Below are positions 7,432 through 46,230 of a stretch of 64,000 bases of DNA, in pieces (position 1 is the first letter of the stretch; the number at the start of each line of letters is the position of its first letter). The stretch spans positions 186,001 through 250,000 of the forward strand of contig CAJTDS010000001.1 of the NCBI GenBank assembly GCA_910575165.1, written 5' to 3'. The notes beneath the pieces are model-generated. The model ran no database searches. It was not told the DNA's origin and worked only from the letters and a program-made list of their open reading frames with translations. The position numbers were made by a program, and so were the translations under genes. This DNA is from Eggerthellaceae bacterium. Its GTDB lineage: Bacteria; Actinomycetota; Coriobacteriia; Coriobacteriales; Eggerthellaceae.

Positions 7432-7459
7432 AGTGTAATGGGGGGGGGTATCTCGTCAA
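7432..7459 (-). promoter_or_regulatory. Predicted phase-variable promoter with a C9 spacer tract
   Basis: On the minus strand TTGACG (7459-7454) and TACACT (7437-7432) are separated by exactly 16 bases, 9 of which are an uninterrupted run of C (plus-strand G9 at 7440-7448). The start codon of the coiled-coil gene is about 115 bases further on. Gain of one base would give the ideal 17-base spacing. Confidence 0.65.
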
Positions 7460-8325: not shown

Positions 8326-8334
8326 CCCCCCCCC
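8326..8334. repeat. C9 homopolymer tract
   Basis: A run of nine C lies 77 bases after the small gene and upstream of no obvious start codon. It belongs to the same class of long tracts as those at 7440, 16574 and 45436. No promoter elements flank it in a convincing way. Confidence 0.6.
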
Positions 8335-16210: not shown

Positions 16211-16454
16211 TCGTTTCCCGTCCGAATGCGGGCAACGCCTCGGCGCCGGAACGTGAAGGTGACATGACAGTTTCCTTAAGGTAACGGTTCGGCGAAACGA
16301 AATCGTTGCTGCAAGCCATCCGAATGGCTATTATGAGACTGGGTGAGAAGCGCGCACGATCATGTTCGGAATATATTCTGCCTGGTCATGGTTCTTCTCT
16401 CTTGAGAGGCAAACGCCGGTTTTCGCAAGGGGCCGGTGGGGGATAGGAGTTGCA

Positions 16455-19400
16455 ATGAGGAAGTCTACTGCTCGTATTAAGGTAGTGAACAGCCTGCTGG
16501 CGTGCACGCTGGTACTGGGGCTGATGCCGTCGCTGGGATCGGTTGCCTACGGCGATCCAGCTGAAAATCTCATGGGGGGGGGGTCGCCTGAAAGCGGTTT
16601 GCTAGGGGCGGTTTCTGACCTCATGATACCCGAAGCGCAGGATGAGCCCGTCGGCGACCCTGCGTCGGAGGATGACGCTGCCCCCGATAACGCCGGCAAC
16701 CCCGAAGGCTCCGTTTCGGCCGCCGACCCCAACTCCGAAGGCGCCGAAGCGAACGCTCCCACCCCTGTTTCCGAAGGTGACGATTCCCCCGACGCCGCCT
16801 CCGACCCCAACGCTGACGACGCCGACGACTCGGCGATCGAGCTCAAATCCTTGGCCACCTTCGACGCTGGCGACGGCTTCACCGACTGCGGCGGCCTGTC
16901 CATCAAGAGCGCCGACGGCTCCACGGACGGCTTCGGCTACGAAGAGGTCACTTGGACGCGCATCGGCCGCGGCTACACCGAGAACGGGTATAGCAGCAGC
17001 GGCCGCAATCCCGAAATCCCCCGTACCACTCCGGTTACCGCTACCCTCAACATGCTGGTTATCAAGAAGAGCGGCACGTACACCATCAAGAACACCGCGG
17101 ACGCGGCCACGGGCACCGGCATCCGCGTCATGCCCGGCTTGAACGTGAACCTGGTGTTCGCCGGCGTAAACATCAACGGCGGCTACCCCATGGAAATCGT
17201 CACCAACAGCCACGTGTCCTCTACCTACGACTTCCTGACCGAAGAGATGGAGGGCTCCGACGTGGCGAATCCCACGCGCGTGCACATCACCCTGGCCGAC
17301 GGTACCACGAACAACCTGACCTCGCTCTACAACAGCATCGCTCACAGCTCGGGCAGCAACCAGAACTACAACGAGTACCAGTTCCCCGGCCTGCGCTGCG
17401 GCGAGGGGTCGTACCTGACCATCGACGACGCGGTGCTCAACGTGGACACGGCGGGCAACCACATCACGCCCGTTGACGGCGCCATCCCCGACGGCACCAC
17501 CTACGTGGACCGCACCGGCACCGTGCGCACCGCCGACTCCACCAAGAAGAAGGAAAGCGAGCGCTTCAACAGCCTGTCGAACCTGGAGTCCTCGAACCCC
17601 GGCGTGCTGAACGTGTACGGCGGCGTGCGCTCGGCTGCCATCGGCGGCGGTCCGCTGGAGAATTCCGGCGTCATGACCTTCGACGGCGGCACCATCAACA
17701 CCTATGCCGCGGCCTTCAACGGTAACGGCGCCGGCTGCGGCATCGGCGGCGGCCATGCGGGCGGCAGCACCCAGACCACCATCAACGGCGGCGTCATCTA
17801 CGCACGGTCGTCCTTCCACGGCGCGGCTATCGGCGGCGGATGCACCTACGTCGGCGGCATGTCGTCCTACCTCACCTTCCCCCTGGCCGACGCGCTGCTC
17901 TCCCGCAACGCCAACTCCACCATCGCCGGCGACATCACCATCAACGGCGGCTTCACCACGGCCCAGGGCGACGAGCACTCCAATGCCTTCGGTCAGGGTT
18001 GCGGTGGCTCCAATACCGGCAAGACCATCCTCATCACCGGCGGCACCCTGTATCCTCTTTGGGGTGGTGGCGGCGGCTTTCTGGAAATCGGTGGCGATGG
18101 CGGCAAGGTCATCATCACCGGCGGCTCCATCAACTGCACGCGCTTCCAGGGCAACGACAACGACGGCAAGGCCTACGGCGGCAAGACCGATGAGAACGGC
18201 AACTACCTGTTCGACAGCACCAACAAGGTGGCCATGATCAACGTGAAGGTGGGCCCGAAGATTGAGTCCATGGTCAAGCAGCTCATGCGCGACAAGCTGG
18301 GCGACGCCTACGACGAGAGCACCATTGCCTCCAATCCGGAGTACCAGAAGCTGCTGGCCGAGGGCATGAACGCCAAGATTGAGTCTTGGGAGTTCAAGAT
18401 TAACGACATGCCCATGGAGCCCTACTACGGCGCGCCGGCCCGTCTGCAGAACGGCATTCTGTACCTGTGGCTGCCCGAGGGCACCTACGGCCGCGACAAG
18501 GTGGACGCGAACTTCAGCTACTACGTGGGCGACCAGCTGCTCACCTCTTACACCAACGTGCCGGCGAACCCCGACTCCGCCGACGGTACCATCAAGGAAT
18601 GGGAGGTCTTCGAGCTGGACGAGGCCTTCATCGAGGCCAACTGGTCCAAGTACTACGATGGCGTCTCCCTTGACTCCGCGGGTATCTTAGGCTCGGGCGG
18701 TATCTCGGTGAACAACCCTCCCAGTGGCAAGCTGACCGATGCGAACAAGCTGACCTTCGGCGCCCAGAAAATGGACGAGCTGGGCAACGGCACGGCGGCT
18801 TCCACCAGCTCTTCGAAGATGCCGGCCGATTCGGGCATGTACAACGTAGAGGTCATGTCCTCTCAGTACGCCTCCGATACCAACTTCGCCGTGACCTACT
18901 GGGGGCACCGCGCCTACGGCACCGCCACGGTGTCTCCCATCTCGTCGCGCTCCGTAACCGAGGTTCCCGAAGAGCTGGGTCGCGTGGTGGGCGACGATAC
19001 CTACACCAGCCCCGTGTGGCTGCAGGACGAGGCTCCCGAAGGGACCGACTTCAACACGGCGCTGCAGAACCACATGTTCGTTCCCGTGGACGTGACCAGC
19101 TACAAGGTGCCCTTCGGAGACACCTACAAGGACGGCACCGACACGGCGAAGGCCTCGTGCGTGGTTCCCCAAGGCCGCATCACGCTGTACCTGGACGGCG
19201 TGCAGATTCCCGCGCGCCTGGGCGGCGTGATTGACTATCGCCTGAGCTATGATGACACCGGCAAGCCGGTTATGGGCGATAACGGTTCGCAAGCTACTAC
19301 CAACAGCGACGTGGTCACCTATGTCGACGACGACGGTCGCATGCACGCGGTGGCCTACTTCGACCTGAACGAGAAGAAGATCAACGAGCTGTTCCGCTCG

Positions 19401-22400
19401 GCGGACTACCGTGCGAACAACACCTTCGACAAGAAGGTTGCCGAGGCTGGCCCCGACGACCCCGCGCCGCTGCACGAGGTGCATGCGGTGTACACGTCGG
19501 CCGTGCGCGACAACCTGATCGACCGCGACGATGTCGACCAGGCTGTGGAAGGCTACAGCCTGGAAGCGCCGCAGGATGAGGAGCCGGCGGCGGAGGAGCA
19601 GGCCGCAGACGACGCGGCCGATGCGACGGTGGGCGCCCTGGCGGCAGGCGGCGAGCTTGATCCGGCGGCCTTCGGAGCCCTGGTGGCGCAGAAGGTGTTG
19701 CTGTTCGCCGAGGGCGCCGACGACGACGCCGGCAGCTTGATCGCGAAGGAGGCCACCTCGGCCGGCATCGACGGCGTGGCGCCCCGGTGGTCCGACTCCG
19801 GCTACGAGAACTACTACGAGTCCACCACGCCTGTGACCTTCGTGGACATCGCCATGGTGGACCCCACGGGCACCCTGTACAACGAGATGGGCCAGCCCCA
19901 GGAGAACCCCGATGGCACCAATTCCTACGACCGCGTGTCCTACGACCCGGCGCTGCCGGTGGATGCGTCCAACATGCCCTCCACCGACGACAAGTACAAG
20001 GCCAGCTACGTGGTGGAAAAGCCCGTCGAGGGCGGCACGGAGAAGGAAGTGGTCTGTGAGGAGTACAAGTTCTACCACGTGACTGACTTCCGCGATTCGG
20101 AGACCTCTCGGGCGTCTACTCCTGACTGGTTCCCCGTTTACCTGACTACGAACTCCCTGGGCGACGTGACCTTCACAAGCTCCGACCCTGCTGCCGTCAC
20201 CTTCGACCCCGCCACGGTGACCAACCGCGAGTACGAGGACGGCACGGTGGAGTACGGCATTGGCGCGCGGGCTCATGTGAACTCGGCAGGTAAGGTGACG
20301 CTCAAGGCTCGGGTGGCTCCCAACGGTGCCTACAACGGGCTGGAGCGCAGCTTCACGCTGTACATCTACCCCGACCTGTCGAAGAAGCCGGTGCTGGACA
20401 TGAAGGAGACGGCTTACGACACCAGCCGCTCCGACGGCACCATCCGCCCCGGCGACGTGCTGGCCTACACTGCCACGCTCACGAACACCACGCCTGACTC
20501 GGCGCTGTTCCGCGGCAAGATGCAGATGCAACTGCCCGACACCCTGGAAGTGGGCCGCGTATTCTATACCGATCCCAACGGAGCGGAGCGCGAGCTTGAC
20601 CCCAGCGAGTACACGGTGACCACCGATCCCGCCACCGGTGTGTCCACCATCGAGTTCACGTCCACCGAGGTGCTCTACGGCTTGGGCCAGATGAGCCTGA
20701 CGGTGGAGGCTGCGGTGAAGGCCGATGTTGCCTGGCGCGCCCTGACCGACCCTGATTCGGTGAGCTTCCATTCCACCACCACGGGCAGCGGCGTGTACGG
20801 TATCGGCGACAGCGACTTCGACTGGGATACCCGTTACGACTACGTGGACGGCACGCCCACCGACGAGGCCAGCGCCGAATGCGACCCCACGCTTCCACCC
20901 GAGCGTGAGCCCGAACAGCCCAAGCCGCCCTATACTCCCGACGAGCTTGAGGAGATTCTCGGCGGTGGCCTGGTGGACCCCGAGCCCGGCACGCCCGACG
21001 ACCCGGAGCCCGGCCCCGGCGTACTGGTGGGCGGCACTGACCCGGTGCCCGGTTCGCCCTTCGACCAGGCGGTGGAGGACAGCGACTATACCGACGACCC
21101 CAAGCCGAACCCCATTGTGCCGGGCGACCGTATCATCAAGTTCGGCGAGAAGGACGATCCCGAGACCCCCGATGACATCGCCGAGGAGCTGAAGCGCATC
21201 ATCGACAAGGTGGTGGAGGAGAACAAGGGCAAGCCCGAGGACGAGCGCCAGACCACGGTTGACATCCCGGTGACTATCCTGACGCCCAACCCCGACGACC
21301 CGGACGGCGAGCCGGTGGAGAAGCACGTGATCATCACGGTGCCCGTGCCCGATACCCCCGATACGCCCGACGTCCCCAGCAACCCCGACGACCCCGACAA
21401 CCCGGACGACCCCGACAATCCGGACGATCCGAGCAACCCGGACGACCCGAAGAACCCCCACGATCCCGATCGCGACGACCACGGTTTGACGGTGCTGCCG
21501 AACGACCCGGTGGTTCCCGACCCCGGCAACCCGGACGACCCCGACGACCCGGACGACCCCGACGACCCGGACACCCCGGCGAAAAGCGACATCGTGGTGA
21601 CCAAGGAGCTTCGCAACGTTACGCCCGGGTTCGCTGACCGCGGCAACACCTACGCGCTGGTGGGCGATACGCTGGAGTACACCATCGTGGCCAAGAACCT
21701 GAAGGAGGGCACGGCGTGGCTTGCGGCCCAGGTGTACGATCCGCTGCCCCAGGGCGTGGCCTACGTGTCCGGTTCGGCGGTCATCACCGATCAGTTCGGC
21801 AAGCAGCATGCGGTGAAGGCCGAAGACGAGCTTCACGGCGAAGGCGGCAAGCTGGGCTTCAACCTGGGCGACATCTACGGCGGCAAGCAGGCTAGCGTCA
21901 CGTTCAAGGTGACGGTCACGGCCGACGCGGTGGCCGACGGCGCCCCGGTGCCGTCCAACGTGGCCTACGGCCAGGGCACGAAGCCTTCCGGCACCGTCGT
22001 GTACCCGGAGGGAACCGACCCCGACACCTTCGATCCCACCACCGACCTGCCTATCGAGATTCAGCTTCCCGACCCCACGCCGGGCACGTTCGACCCGGGC
22101 AGCGAGGATGAGAAGGACAAGTGGGAGGAAGAGGATCCGGACAACCCCGGTACCACCAAGCCCAAGGACCTGCTGCCCACCGACCCGGCCAAGCCTGACG
22201 GCACGAGCCACACCGACCCCGACCATGGGAAGTTCTCCACGGTCAAGGACGCCACGGTGGTGACCGAGCACGAGGGTGCGCCCGAGGGCACTGTGTACGT
22301 GGGCGACGTGGTGGCCTATACCATCACGTTCGCGAATCACGACGAGCCGTGGACTGCGTGGTACAACGTGACCCTGTACGACAAGCTGCCCAAGGGCCTG

Positions 22401-23027
22401 GCGCCGGTGGCGGGCTCCTTCGCGCTGAAGGCCCCTGGCGCCGATGAGGCCCAGCCGCTTGACGACTCGGTCTACAACGCGCAAAGCGGGGACATCTCGG
22501 TGTATGTGGGGCGCGTGTTGGGCGGTCAGGAAGCGGTGCTCACGTTCCAGTGCACCGTCACTGACGAGGCTGTGGGCTCCGACATCGGCAACACAGCGGC
22601 TGTGTACGGCACCGACCCGTCGAAGACCGAGCCCTCAGTGCTGGATGGTACGCCGGGTGCCACTCCCGGGGTGGGTGACCGCTACGCCCCCGAAGAGGGC
22701 TGGGACGGATTCGTGGAGGATAACGGCTCTGATTCGGCGAACTTCTCGTCGGTGAGCTATCCCGACAGCGAAGGCCCTGTGGACGTGGTCGACCCGAATG
22801 GCGACCCGAACCGCAAGCCCACGCCGCTGCCTTCCGGCGACGGCAACGGTAACGGCGACGGTAACGGCGGCCCGGGCGGCTCGTCGGCGGCCACGGGTGA
22901 CAGCCTGCCCGTGACGGCGCTTGCGGGCCTGGCGTTCGCGGCCTTCGTGGTGCTGGCGACCGCCCTGTGGCGCCGCCGGGTAGACGCCCTCAGGGAGCAG
23001 GCGCCGCACGGCAAGCACGTGCGGTAA
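16455..23027 (+). CDS. Giant cell-surface adhesin-like protein with a phase-variable G10 tract
   Basis: 2190 residues from ATG 16455 (ATAGGAG upstream; an upstream in-frame ATG at 16362 lacks a ribosome site). Residues 1-32 are a signal peptide ending SVAYG-D. An acidic Pro/Ala-rich region (33-135) follows and holds three Gly encoded by the G10 tract. Residues about 135-650 are Gly/Asn-rich with GGG(x) turns (AAIGGGPLENSG, CGIGGGHAGG), as in beta-helix surface proteins. DUF11-like repeats start near 1312, 1712 and 1927 (e.g. VLAYTATLTNTT, LEYTIVAKNL, VAYTITFANHD). Asp-Pro-rich linkers (DNPDDPDNPDD type) lie at about 1635-1675 and 1689-1709. The C-terminus is AATGDSLPVT, a 20-residue membrane segment and RRR, like a sortase signal but without LPxTG. 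Role in adhesion is inferred. Confidence 0.9.
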   Translation: MRKSTARIKVVNSLLACTLVLGLMPSLGSVAYGDPAENLMGGGSPESGLLGAVSDLMIPEAQDEPVGDPASEDDAAPDNAGNPEGSVSAADPNSEGAEANAPTPVSEGDDSPDAASDPNADDADDSAIELKSLATFDAGDGFTDCGGLSIKSADGSTDGFGYEEVTWTRIGRGYTENGYSSSGRNPEIPRTTPVTATLNMLVIKKSGTYTIKNTADAATGTGIRVMPGLNVNLVFAGVNINGGYPMEIVTNSHVSSTYDFLTEEMEGSDVANPTRVHITLADGTTNNLTSLYNSIAHSSGSNQNYNEYQFPGLRCGEGSYLTIDDAVLNVDTAGNHITPVDGAIPDGTTYVDRTGTVRTADSTKKKESERFNSLSNLESSNPGVLNVYGGVRSAAIGGGPLENSGVMTFDGGTINTYAAAFNGNGAGCGIGGGHAGGSTQTTINGGVIYARSSFHGAAIGGGCTYVGGMSSYLTFPLADALLSRNANSTIAGDITINGGFTTAQGDEHSNAFGQGCGGSNTGKTILITGGTLYPLWGGGGGFLEIGGDGGKVIITGGSINCTRFQGNDNDGKAYGGKTDENGNYLFDSTNKVAMINVKVGPKIESMVKQLMRDKLGDAYDESTIASNPEYQKLLAEGMNAKIESWEFKINDMPMEPYYGAPARLQNGILYLWLPEGTYGRDKVDANFSYYVGDQLLTSYTNVPANPDSADGTIKEWEVFELDEAFIEANWSKYYDGVSLDSAGILGSGGISVNNPPSGKLTDANKLTFGAQKMDELGNGTAASTSSSKMPADSGMYNVEVMSSQYASDTNFAVTYWGHRAYGTATVSPISSRSVTEVPEELGRVVGDDTYTSPVWLQDEAPEGTDFNTALQNHMFVPVDVTSYKVPFGDTYKDGTDTAKASCVVPQGRITLYLDGVQIPARLGGVIDYRLSYDDTGKPVMGDNGSQATTNSDVVTYVDDDGRMHAVAYFDLNEKKINELFRSADYRANNTFDKKVAEAGPDDPAPLHEVHAVYTSAVRDNLIDRDDVDQAVEGYSLEAPQDEEPAAEEQAADDAADATVGALAAGGELDPAAFGALVAQKVLLFAEGADDDAGSLIAKEATSAGIDGVAPRWSDSGYENYYESTTPVTFVDIAMVDPTGTLYNEMGQPQENPDGTNSYDRVSYDPALPVDASNMPSTDDKYKASYVVEKPVEGGTEKEVVCEEYKFYHVTDFRDSETSRASTPDWFPVYLTTNSLGDVTFTSSDPAAVTFDPATVTNREYEDGTVEYGIGARAHVNSAGKVTLKARVAPNGAYNGLERSFTLYIYPDLSKKPVLDMKETAYDTSRSDGTIRPGDVLAYTATLTNTTPDSALFRGKMQMQLPDTLEVGRVFYTDPNGAERELDPSEYTVTTDPATGVSTIEFTSTEVLYGLGQMSLTVEAAVKADVAWRALTDPDSVSFHSTTTGSGVYGIGDSDFDWDTRYDYVDGTPTDEASAECDPTLPPEREPEQPKPPYTPDELEEILGGGLVDPEPGTPDDPEPGPGVLVGGTDPVPGSPFDQAVEDSDYTDDPKPNPIVPGDRIIKFGEKDDPETPDDIAEELKRIIDKVVEENKGKPEDERQTTVDIPVTILTPNPDDPDGEPVEKHVIITVPVPDTPDTPDVPSNPDDPDNPDDPDNPDDPSNPDDPKNPHDPDRDDHGLTVLPNDPVVPDPGNPDDPDDPDDPDDPDTPAKSDIVVTKELRNVTPGFADRGNTYALVGDTLEYTIVAKNLKEGTAWLAAQVYDPLPQGVAYVSGSAVITDQFGKQHAVKAEDELHGEGGKLGFNLGDIYGGKQASVTFKVTVTADAVADGAPVPSNVAYGQGTKPSGTVVYPEGTDPDTFDPTTDLPIEIQLPDPTPGTFDPGSEDEKDKWEEEDPDNPGTTKPKDLLPTDPAKPDGTSHTDPDHGKFSTVKDATVVTEHEGAPEGTVYVGDVVAYTITFANHDEPWTAWYNVTLYDKLPKGLAPVAGSFALKAPGADEAQPLDDSVYNAQSGDISVYVGRVLGGQEAVLTFQCTVTDEAVGSDIGNTAAVYGTDPSKTEPSVLDGTPGATPGVGDRYAPEEGWDGFVEDNGSDSANFSSVSYPDSEGPVDVVDPNGDPNRKPTPLPSGDGNGNGDGNGGPGGSSAATGDSLPVTALAGLAFAAFVVLATALWRRRVDALREQAPHGKHVR
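16574..16583 (+). repeat. G10 homopolymer inside the adhesin reading frame
   Basis: Ten consecutive G follow CAT at codons 40-43, just after the signal peptide. With ten G the frame is open; gain or loss of one base would shift it and stop the protein early. Confidence 0.85.
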
Positions 23028-44639: not shown

Positions 44640-45031
44640 TGGGCGGGAAGGCGATAGTCCGCGCCGTGGTGAGCCCGATGCTCCCCGAGTTCGAGGTGGC
44701 GCTCTGGCACTCGCGCAAGCGGATGCTCCGGCGCCTCGGCAGCCGCGGGCTGTCTCCGAAGCTGCTCGAATGGCCGTGCGCACAGGTGACGGTATGCGGG
44801 AACGCGTACCACGTGCTCGACGAGTCGCCGAAGGGCGCGCCGGAGCACGAGAGGCTCGCTCTGCTCGCCCACGAGGCCGTGCACGTGGCTCTCTGGCACC
44901 TGAGGTCCATCGGCGAGGAGCGGTACGGCGACGAGGAGCTGGCCTACACGGTGCAGGCCGCGTGCGCGGCGCTCTTCGAGGCGCACATAGCCCACGAGGC
45001 CGGCAATGACATGGAGGGGGTGCGCCAGTGA
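44636..45031 (+). CDS. Putative small zinc metalloprotease-like protein
   Basis: 131 residues. HEAVHVALWH gives the HExxH zinc motif with a further His, in the middle of a helix-rich protein, and TVQAACAALFEAHIAHEAG follows. Similar small zincin-like proteins occur in phage early regions; target unknown. Overlaps the methyltransferase start by 4 bases. Confidence 0.65.
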   Translation: MMGGKAIVRAVVSPMLPEFEVALWHSRKRMLRRLGSRGLSPKLLEWPCAQVTVCGNAYHVLDESPKGAPEHERLALLAHEAVHVALWHLRSIGEERYGDEELAYTVQAACAALFEAHIAHEAGNDMEGVRQ

Positions 45032-46230
45032 GGTACATAAGCCTGTTCAGCGGCGTAGAGGCCGCGTCGGTGGCGTGGGAGCCGCTCGGCTGGGAGCCGG
45101 TGGCGTTCGCCGAGGTCGAGCCGTTCCCCTGCGCCGTTCTGGAAGAGAGGTTCCCCGGGGTGCCGAACCTCGGGGACGTGACGAAGGTCGATTGGAGGGA
45201 GTGGCGTGGAAAAGCCGATCTCGTCGTCGGAGGAAGCCCGTGCCAGGCGTTCAGCGTCGCTGGACTACGCAAGGGGCTTGCTGACCCTCGGGGAAACCTC
45301 ATGCTCGAATACCTGCGAGCTTGCTACGAGATTGGACCCGAGTGGATCGTCTGGGAGAACGTCCCGGGAGTTCTATCCGCTGACGGAAGGCGGGCTTTCC
45401 AGGCCTTCCTCGAAGCGGTGGTTGAACTGTGGCCTGGGGGGGGGTTCTGCTGGAGGGTGCTGGACGCTCAGTTCTTCGGAGTGGCCCAGCGACGCCGCCG
45501 TGTGTTCGTTGTCGTCAATACTAGAGACTGGCGACGGGCCGCTGCGGTACTGCTTGAGCGCGACTGCCTGCGCGGGGATTCTCCGTCGAGCCGCGACAAG
45601 AGGAAAGCCCTTGCCGGGCTTCCTGGAGGCGGCGCTGTGGAGCGTCGTGCTCAAGCACCTGGGGAAGCGCATGTGCGAGCTGGTGGATGCGGACCTGGAC
45701 CAGTTCGAGGCGAAGGGGCAGCGCCTGGCGCTGCCTACGCTCTGCAGGTACGTTGCGGATGCGAGGGAGGCGGAAAGGGCGCTTTGCTACAGGAGGACGT
45801 GAGCGCGACGCTCGCAACGTCCAACACGCAGACGCTCTTCCAGCCCACGGCGTGCTACTCGATCGCCGGCGACATCGCGAGGGGAGCCCATATGCGGCAG
45901 AACGGGAAGGGGTGGTCTGACGACGGTGCGTCCCCCACGGTCACGACGCTCGACGTGCCTGCCGTGGCTTTCACGCAGAACCAGCGCGACGAGGTGCGTC
46001 TGGAAGGATGCGACGGGCAGGTTGTCGGAGCAATCGCCGCGAGTCCGGGCTCCAAGAACCAGCATTACGTGTGCATGGCCGATGACGCCGCGAAGTCGGC
46101 GGTTGACTGCGACATGTGCGGCACGCTCAAGCGCGGGGGACTTCCCTTCGTAGCCTACCGAGCAGCGGAGAGGACTACATCGGGACCCTGTGCGCCAGGG
46201 ACTACAAGGGGCCGGGTAACCAGGACATAG
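45028..46230 (+). CDS. C5-cytosine DNA methyltransferase, main part, with G9 tract and a broken C-terminal frame
   Basis: 400 residues. Motif I YISLFSGVEAASVAW, motif IV GGSPCQAFS near 69, motif VI WENVPG near 112, motif VIII QRRRRVFVV near 153. A G9 run (45436-45444) encodes three Gly at about 137-139. A long variable region (GGCEGGGKGALL... type) follows. Near 46160 the expected frame (SSGEDYIGTLCARDYKG, next frame) is left and the ORF ends in an unrelated tail. Motifs IX and X lie in the separate ORF at 46253. Either two frameshifts have killed the gene or it works as a split enzyme. It could protect phage DNA from host restriction. Confidence 0.85.
   Translation: MRYISLFSGVEAASVAWEPLGWEPVAFAEVEPFPCAVLEERFPGVPNLGDVTKVDWREWRGKADLVVGGSPCQAFSVAGLRKGLADPRGNLMLEYLRACYEIGPEWIVWENVPGVLSADGRRAFQAFLEAVVELWPGGGFCWRVLDAQFFGVAQRRRRVFVVVNTRDWRRAAAVLLERDCLRGDSPSSRDKRKALAGLPGGGAVERRAQAPGEAHVRAGGCGPGPVRGEGAAPGAAYALQVRCGCEGGGKGALLQEDVSATLATSNTQTLFQPTACYSIAGDIARGAHMRQNGKGWSDDGASPTVTTLDVPAVAFTQNQRDEVRLEGCDGQVVGAIAASPGSKNQHYVCMADDAAKSAVDCDMCGTLKRGGLPFVAYRAAERTTSGPCAPGTTRGRVTRT
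45436..45444 (+). repeat. G9 homopolymer inside the methyltransferase reading frame
   Basis: Nine G between motifs VI and VIII of the methyltransferase. The present length keeps the frame open through motif VIII. Confidence 0.85.

Follow-up and report, generated by a model that had tools for sequence, protein, structure and literature searches.

RESULTS

Giant gene with a G10 run behind its signal peptide

The window, a stretch of 64,000 nt from an Eggerthellaceae bacterium, carries on its forward strand a 2190-codon open reading frame with the ATG at 16455 and the stop at 23027 (16455..23027, +); the frame itself, its domain matches and a structure model mark it as the gene of a giant surface protein. 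A ribosome-binding site (AGGAG) and its spacer (16443..16454, +) stand ahead of the ATG, and neither an Rfam match nor a promoter-like site was found near the start of the gene. Its first ∼33 codons (16455..16553, +) were read by eye from the translation as a signal peptide, MRKSTARIKVVNSLLACTLVLGLMPSLGSVAYG, terminating shortly 5′ of a run of ten G, GGGGGGGGGG, at 16574–16583 (+). The first-pass annotation had placed such a run right after the signal peptide and had stated that, lying in codons 40–43, it keeps the frame open; both statements were confirmed, as ATG GGG GGG GGG TCG spans the run, which begins at the last base of codon 40, and the frame continues through all 2190 codons.

The run thus occupies the 5′ coding part of the gene, as the repeats of slipped-strand phase-variable genes do, and, again as in such genes, a change by a single unit alters the frame. 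With the run set in silico to G7, G10 or G13 the protein stays whole; with G8, G9, G11 or G12 it stops after 44–50 residues, so that the earlier claim that slippage would turn the gene off holds for G9 and G11. Based on the sequence, these in silico frames and the relatives described below, we propose that the run is an ON/OFF switch that is ON in the assembly.

The protein consists of the signal peptide, the G10 run, a conserved N-terminal region of ∼600 residues, repeats and a C-terminal membrane segment. Toward the C-terminus Pfam and NCBIfam models identified DUF11-type repeats and isopeptide-forming pilin-type domains (TIGR04226, 53.6 bits at a cutoff of 30). The C-terminus itself, ...SSAATGDSLPVTALAGLAFAAFVVLATALWRRR, is a membrane segment followed by a basic tail; the canonical LPXTG is absent from it. 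For the conserved N-terminal region a beta-rich structure is predicted; an AlphaFold2 model of residues 200–815 (mean pLDDT 79) had no significant match in PDB (best E 0.45), nor did the conserved region match a solved relative in sequence, and we therefore claim no binding function for the protein. By its domains and membrane segment the product is a cell-surface protein; its size, the pilin-type and DUF11 domains and the C-terminal segment together suggest an adhesin. Neighbouring genes code for a two-component system, a phosphate transporter and methionine synthesis; Pfam scans of 16 ORFs of the window, mostly around the giant gene, found no sortase gene.

Runs of G or C in the same genome

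Counted over the window, GGGGGGGGG occurs five times, with 1.54 occurrences expected, and five or more were seen in 8 of 100 shuffles; by count alone the G10 run is not beyond chance. As the window count is not significant alone, we used position and recurrence as evidence.

Genome-wide, exact runs of G or C of lengths 7 to 12 number 30, 12, 29, 10, 3 and 1, respectively; the counts peak again at length 9 instead of falling steadily. GGG encodes 17% of glycines, and none of the 91 other Gly-Gly-Gly stretches in called genes uses GGG three times. There are 43 runs of at least nine bases, mostly intergenic by crude gene calling; the caller missed at least three genes overlying runs, and the stretch around each run was analyzed. 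Intergenic runs of 9 to 12 bases lie at 7440–7448 and 8326–8334 of the window and at ∼30 further places in the genome; several are 50–400 bases upstream of genes and could be promoter-type switches.

Ten runs are coding, counting those in the window gene and in its paralogue at C8:63060, which has a C10 after its own signal peptide and is ON; seven of the ten fall in the first 41 codons, where ∼9% of codons lie. The other 5′ runs belong to envelope genes: (i) a ‘titan’ gene at C2:138370 (L034:8371 on), with G9 near codon 17, ON; (ii) three lipoprotein genes, one ON with C10 (C2:234527) and two OFF, with signal peptide and body in different frames, at C16:58640 (G9, L020:7641–7649) and C18:54093 (C9, L024:7594–7602); (iii) dltA, the D-alanine ligase for teichoic acids, at C6:103173–104735 (L049:6171–7736, − strand), with G9 at codon 34, ON. 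Three runs lie further inside genes, at codon 187 of an FHA protein, at codon 244 of a secreted protein (C3:281) and at codon 137 of a cytosine-5 DNA methyltransferase (window 45028–46230, +; in-frame G9 at 45436–45444). C-terminal motifs of the methyltransferase were seen further on, in other frames; this gene may be broken or switched.

Titan open frames measured 11,693 codons (C2:138370) and 24,208 codons, and one of 34,927 codons was seen in a relative; the loci are C2:138370 on in the own genome, G002:C39 and G000:C1:29764. Titan relatives carry G9–G12 near the start, some of these runs being coding and some located in the 5′ leader. Among dltA orthologues with at least 57% identity we saw, in the position of the codon 34 run, G10 ON (G023), G9 ON (G012), G10 OFF (G006) and C9 OFF (G107); in G081 the run lies where the contig ends, and two genes had no run; more distant dltA genes had no run. 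Judged from these alleles, D-alanylation of the wall is likely to be phase-variable through the dltA run.

Recurrence of the run among relatives

When 137 genomes of the family were searched, 13 of them, from four genera, proved to contain relatives of the window gene. A scan of named genomes located relatives in Adlercreutzia muris, A. caecimuris, A. mucosicola and A. faecimuris, in Enterorhabdus bins, in ‘Bacterium D16-34’ and in Olsenella sp. KGMB02461; distant relatives occur in Bacillota. We took 51 relatives with upstream DNA and left out three that were truncated or contained N; with the window gene, 49 genes were assessable.

A G9/G10 or C9/C10 run is present in the 5′ coding part of 38 of the 49 assessable genes (Eggerthellaceae, window gene counted), while not a single run of at least eight was found further downstream in the coding sequence of these family genes (169,506 bases in total). 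Were the runs evenly spread, all 38 would fall within the 5′ 300 bases with a probability of ∼10^-41, a rough figure that ignores the shared descent of many runs. A further G10, in G082 (L121/L148), was dropped from the count, being located ∼350 bases upstream of the gene. The run consists of G in some family genes and of C in others, and flanks and codon positions differ as well, indicating that the runs arose more than once. Runs also occur in genomes of lower G+C content: C9 in the relative L106 of G001 (49% G+C) and G9 following the signal peptide of the Bacillota relative L133 (46% G+C).

No run was found in the nearest orthologues from G001, A. agrestimuris and Olsenella sp. KGMB02461, which counts against a switch. 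The A. muris gene L103 reads ETPHDA at the place where its counterpart in G012, L097, carries the run; in L103 and some other relatives the run has been lost or was never present.

ON and OFF alleles

An allele was called ON where signal peptide and body share a frame and OFF where their frames differ, with one consensus allele per genome. The state could be called in 36 of the 38 run-bearing genes: 15 were ON and 21 OFF. The clearest pair, orthologues of two closely related species, consists of G012 (G9, ON) and G007 of A. muris (G10, OFF). Except for one G, their aligned sequences agree over the 179 bases that precede the run and the 41 bases that separate it from the next indel; the signal-peptide frame of A. 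muris stops two codons past the run. A second pair, G062 (C9, ON) and G064 (C10, OFF), is slightly more diverged. Thus, between closely related members of the family of the window gene, run length differs and the ON/OFF outcome differs with it, as expected of slipped-strand phase-variable genes.

The bodies of OFF genes are open for ∼680 to 1500 codons past the run, nearly all of them to the end of the fetched stretch. Downstream of the run dN/dS was 0.09 in each of the two ON/OFF pairs and 0.18–0.55 in OFF/OFF pairs. OFF alleles, therefore, have retained intact and constrained bodies, L091 being an exception. A second frameshift was seen in the OFF relative L091, L123b (G006:C14); this copy may be decaying or misassembled.

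Several observations count against a switch. Most runs of the family are exactly nine bases long irrespective of the ON or OFF state. Also, a large subgroup (signal peptide ending in ETPP, C9, ATCGAG) was OFF in every copy examined, a uniformity not required by free switching. The further frameshift of L091 and the intergenic location of most runs of the genome likewise count against it.

DISCUSSION

Proposed mechanism and alternatives

Because many related genes carry a similar run at the same place, some being ON and some OFF, we consider it highly probable that the G10 run works as a slipped-strand phase-variation switch. At replication the run would occasionally gain or lose one G; G10 joins signal peptide and 2150-residue body in one frame (ON), with G9 or G11 translation stops within a few codons (OFF), and later slips would bring the ON state back, making a population a mixture of ON and OFF cells. 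The consequence for the frame, the recurrence of runs at the same place and the occurrence of both allele states among related genomes were observed directly; the rate of slippage and its reversibility within a population we infer. The benefit may be evasion of antibodies or phages, or altered adhesion. The first-pass annotation had called the position of the run early in a surface gene typical of contingency loci, a reading that gains support from the recurrent runs in relatives, their ON and OFF alleles and the constrained OFF bodies.

Out-of-frame alleles might instead be expressed by recoding, either +1 ribosomal frameshifting on CCC-C or RNA polymerase slippage; the run would then set the level of expression rather than a heritable ON or OFF state. 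In one subgroup, indeed, every gene has C9 and an identical +1 offset, and recoding would likewise explain why the bodies of OFF genes are conserved. However, C9 and C10, G9 and G10, and offsets of both +1 and −1 all occur among relatives, so no single direction of shift could serve all of them and recoding is not general; moreover, ON alleles, with no need for recoding, carry runs too. Given the two offset signs and the two lengths, we rejected programmed frameshifting as a sole mechanism, and we regard the recoding explanation as improbable, although it may apply to the subgroup with C9 throughout.

Still less probable is that the run plays no part in switching and is present by chance or neutrally, in a G+C-rich genome tolerant of long G/C runs. 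The window count is within chance, as noted, and most runs of the genome are outside called genes, where no coding switch is possible; yet the same family genes have 38 runs in the 5′ part and none downstream, runs appear in the 49% and 46% G+C genomes as well, and seven of ten coding runs of the own genome crowd into the first 41 codons. The OFF alleles might, finally, be decayed pseudogenes or result from faulty sequencing or assembly: homopolymers are prone to errors, a further frameshift is present in L091, and L112, which has no run, contains an in-frame TAG; against this, both states were present in independent assemblies, of isolates as well as of metagenome bins, and OFF bodies are open and constrained. 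We give this explanation the least credence of all. Neither neutral runs nor sequence errors explain the position of the runs, their recurrence and the constraint on OFF bodies. Slipped-strand phase variation accounts for all of these observations.

Returning to slipped-strand switching, we lean, with less confidence than for the window gene, towards the idea that slippage switches form a combinatorial set throughout the Eggerthellaceae lineage, in several copies per genome of the giant family, in other giant surface genes, in lipoproteins and in dltA. If so, every cell would show its own subset of surface proteins and its own wall charge. Eggerthellaceae are common gut bacteria, and some members metabolise drugs and polyphenols. 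If slippage governs a set of giant proteins and a wall-charging enzyme, pure cultures would be mixtures, OFF alleles would be annotated as broken genes in reference genomes, and run-length typing would be needed in studies of host or phage interaction.

Comparison with known systems

Reversible surface variation is known in the same family: the capsule of Eggerthella lenta is switched, although by inversion instead of slippage (PMC13174815). The text of that paper on the capsule never mentions homopolymers. In the open literature on phase variation in Eggerthella and Adlercreutzia (subscription papers are largely outside it) the only reports found concerned capsule inversion, prophage retroelements or unrelated matters, and none described slippage.

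Contingency genes with poly-G/C runs switch surface determinants ON and OFF in Neisseria and Campylobacter (PMC5084427, PMC4965091); these are Gram-negative bacteria and the genes are different from the window gene. In Gardnerella, runs of at least eight bases lie near surface-protein genes, and colonies of one strain differ in having nine or ten bases (PMC11287997); the protein families and the order of bacteria differ from ours.

The nearest system is that of Bifidobacterium breve UCC2003, where in the sortase-dependent pilus genes bbr_0113 and bbr_1889 a G run joins or splits secretion signal and body (PMC9187656); ON/OFF variation by replication slippage was demonstrated there by deep sequencing and was apparently selected in mice (PMC9187656). 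Both cases concern gut Actinomycetota, in both a G run separates the secretion signal from a large surface body, and the window protein, like the products of these pilus genes, has a pilin-type isopeptide domain. The differences are that the B. breve runs are G11/G12, in a pilin operon with sortase and in measured populations, whereas the window family has 9–10 G or C, codes for giant proteins, belongs to another class and is known from assemblies; a pilus operon with an adjacent sortase gene was not seen among the 16 ORFs scanned in the window. The slipped-strand mechanism is thus known; what is new is the giant-protein family, its repeated use throughout the lineage, and the probable control of dltA in the same way.
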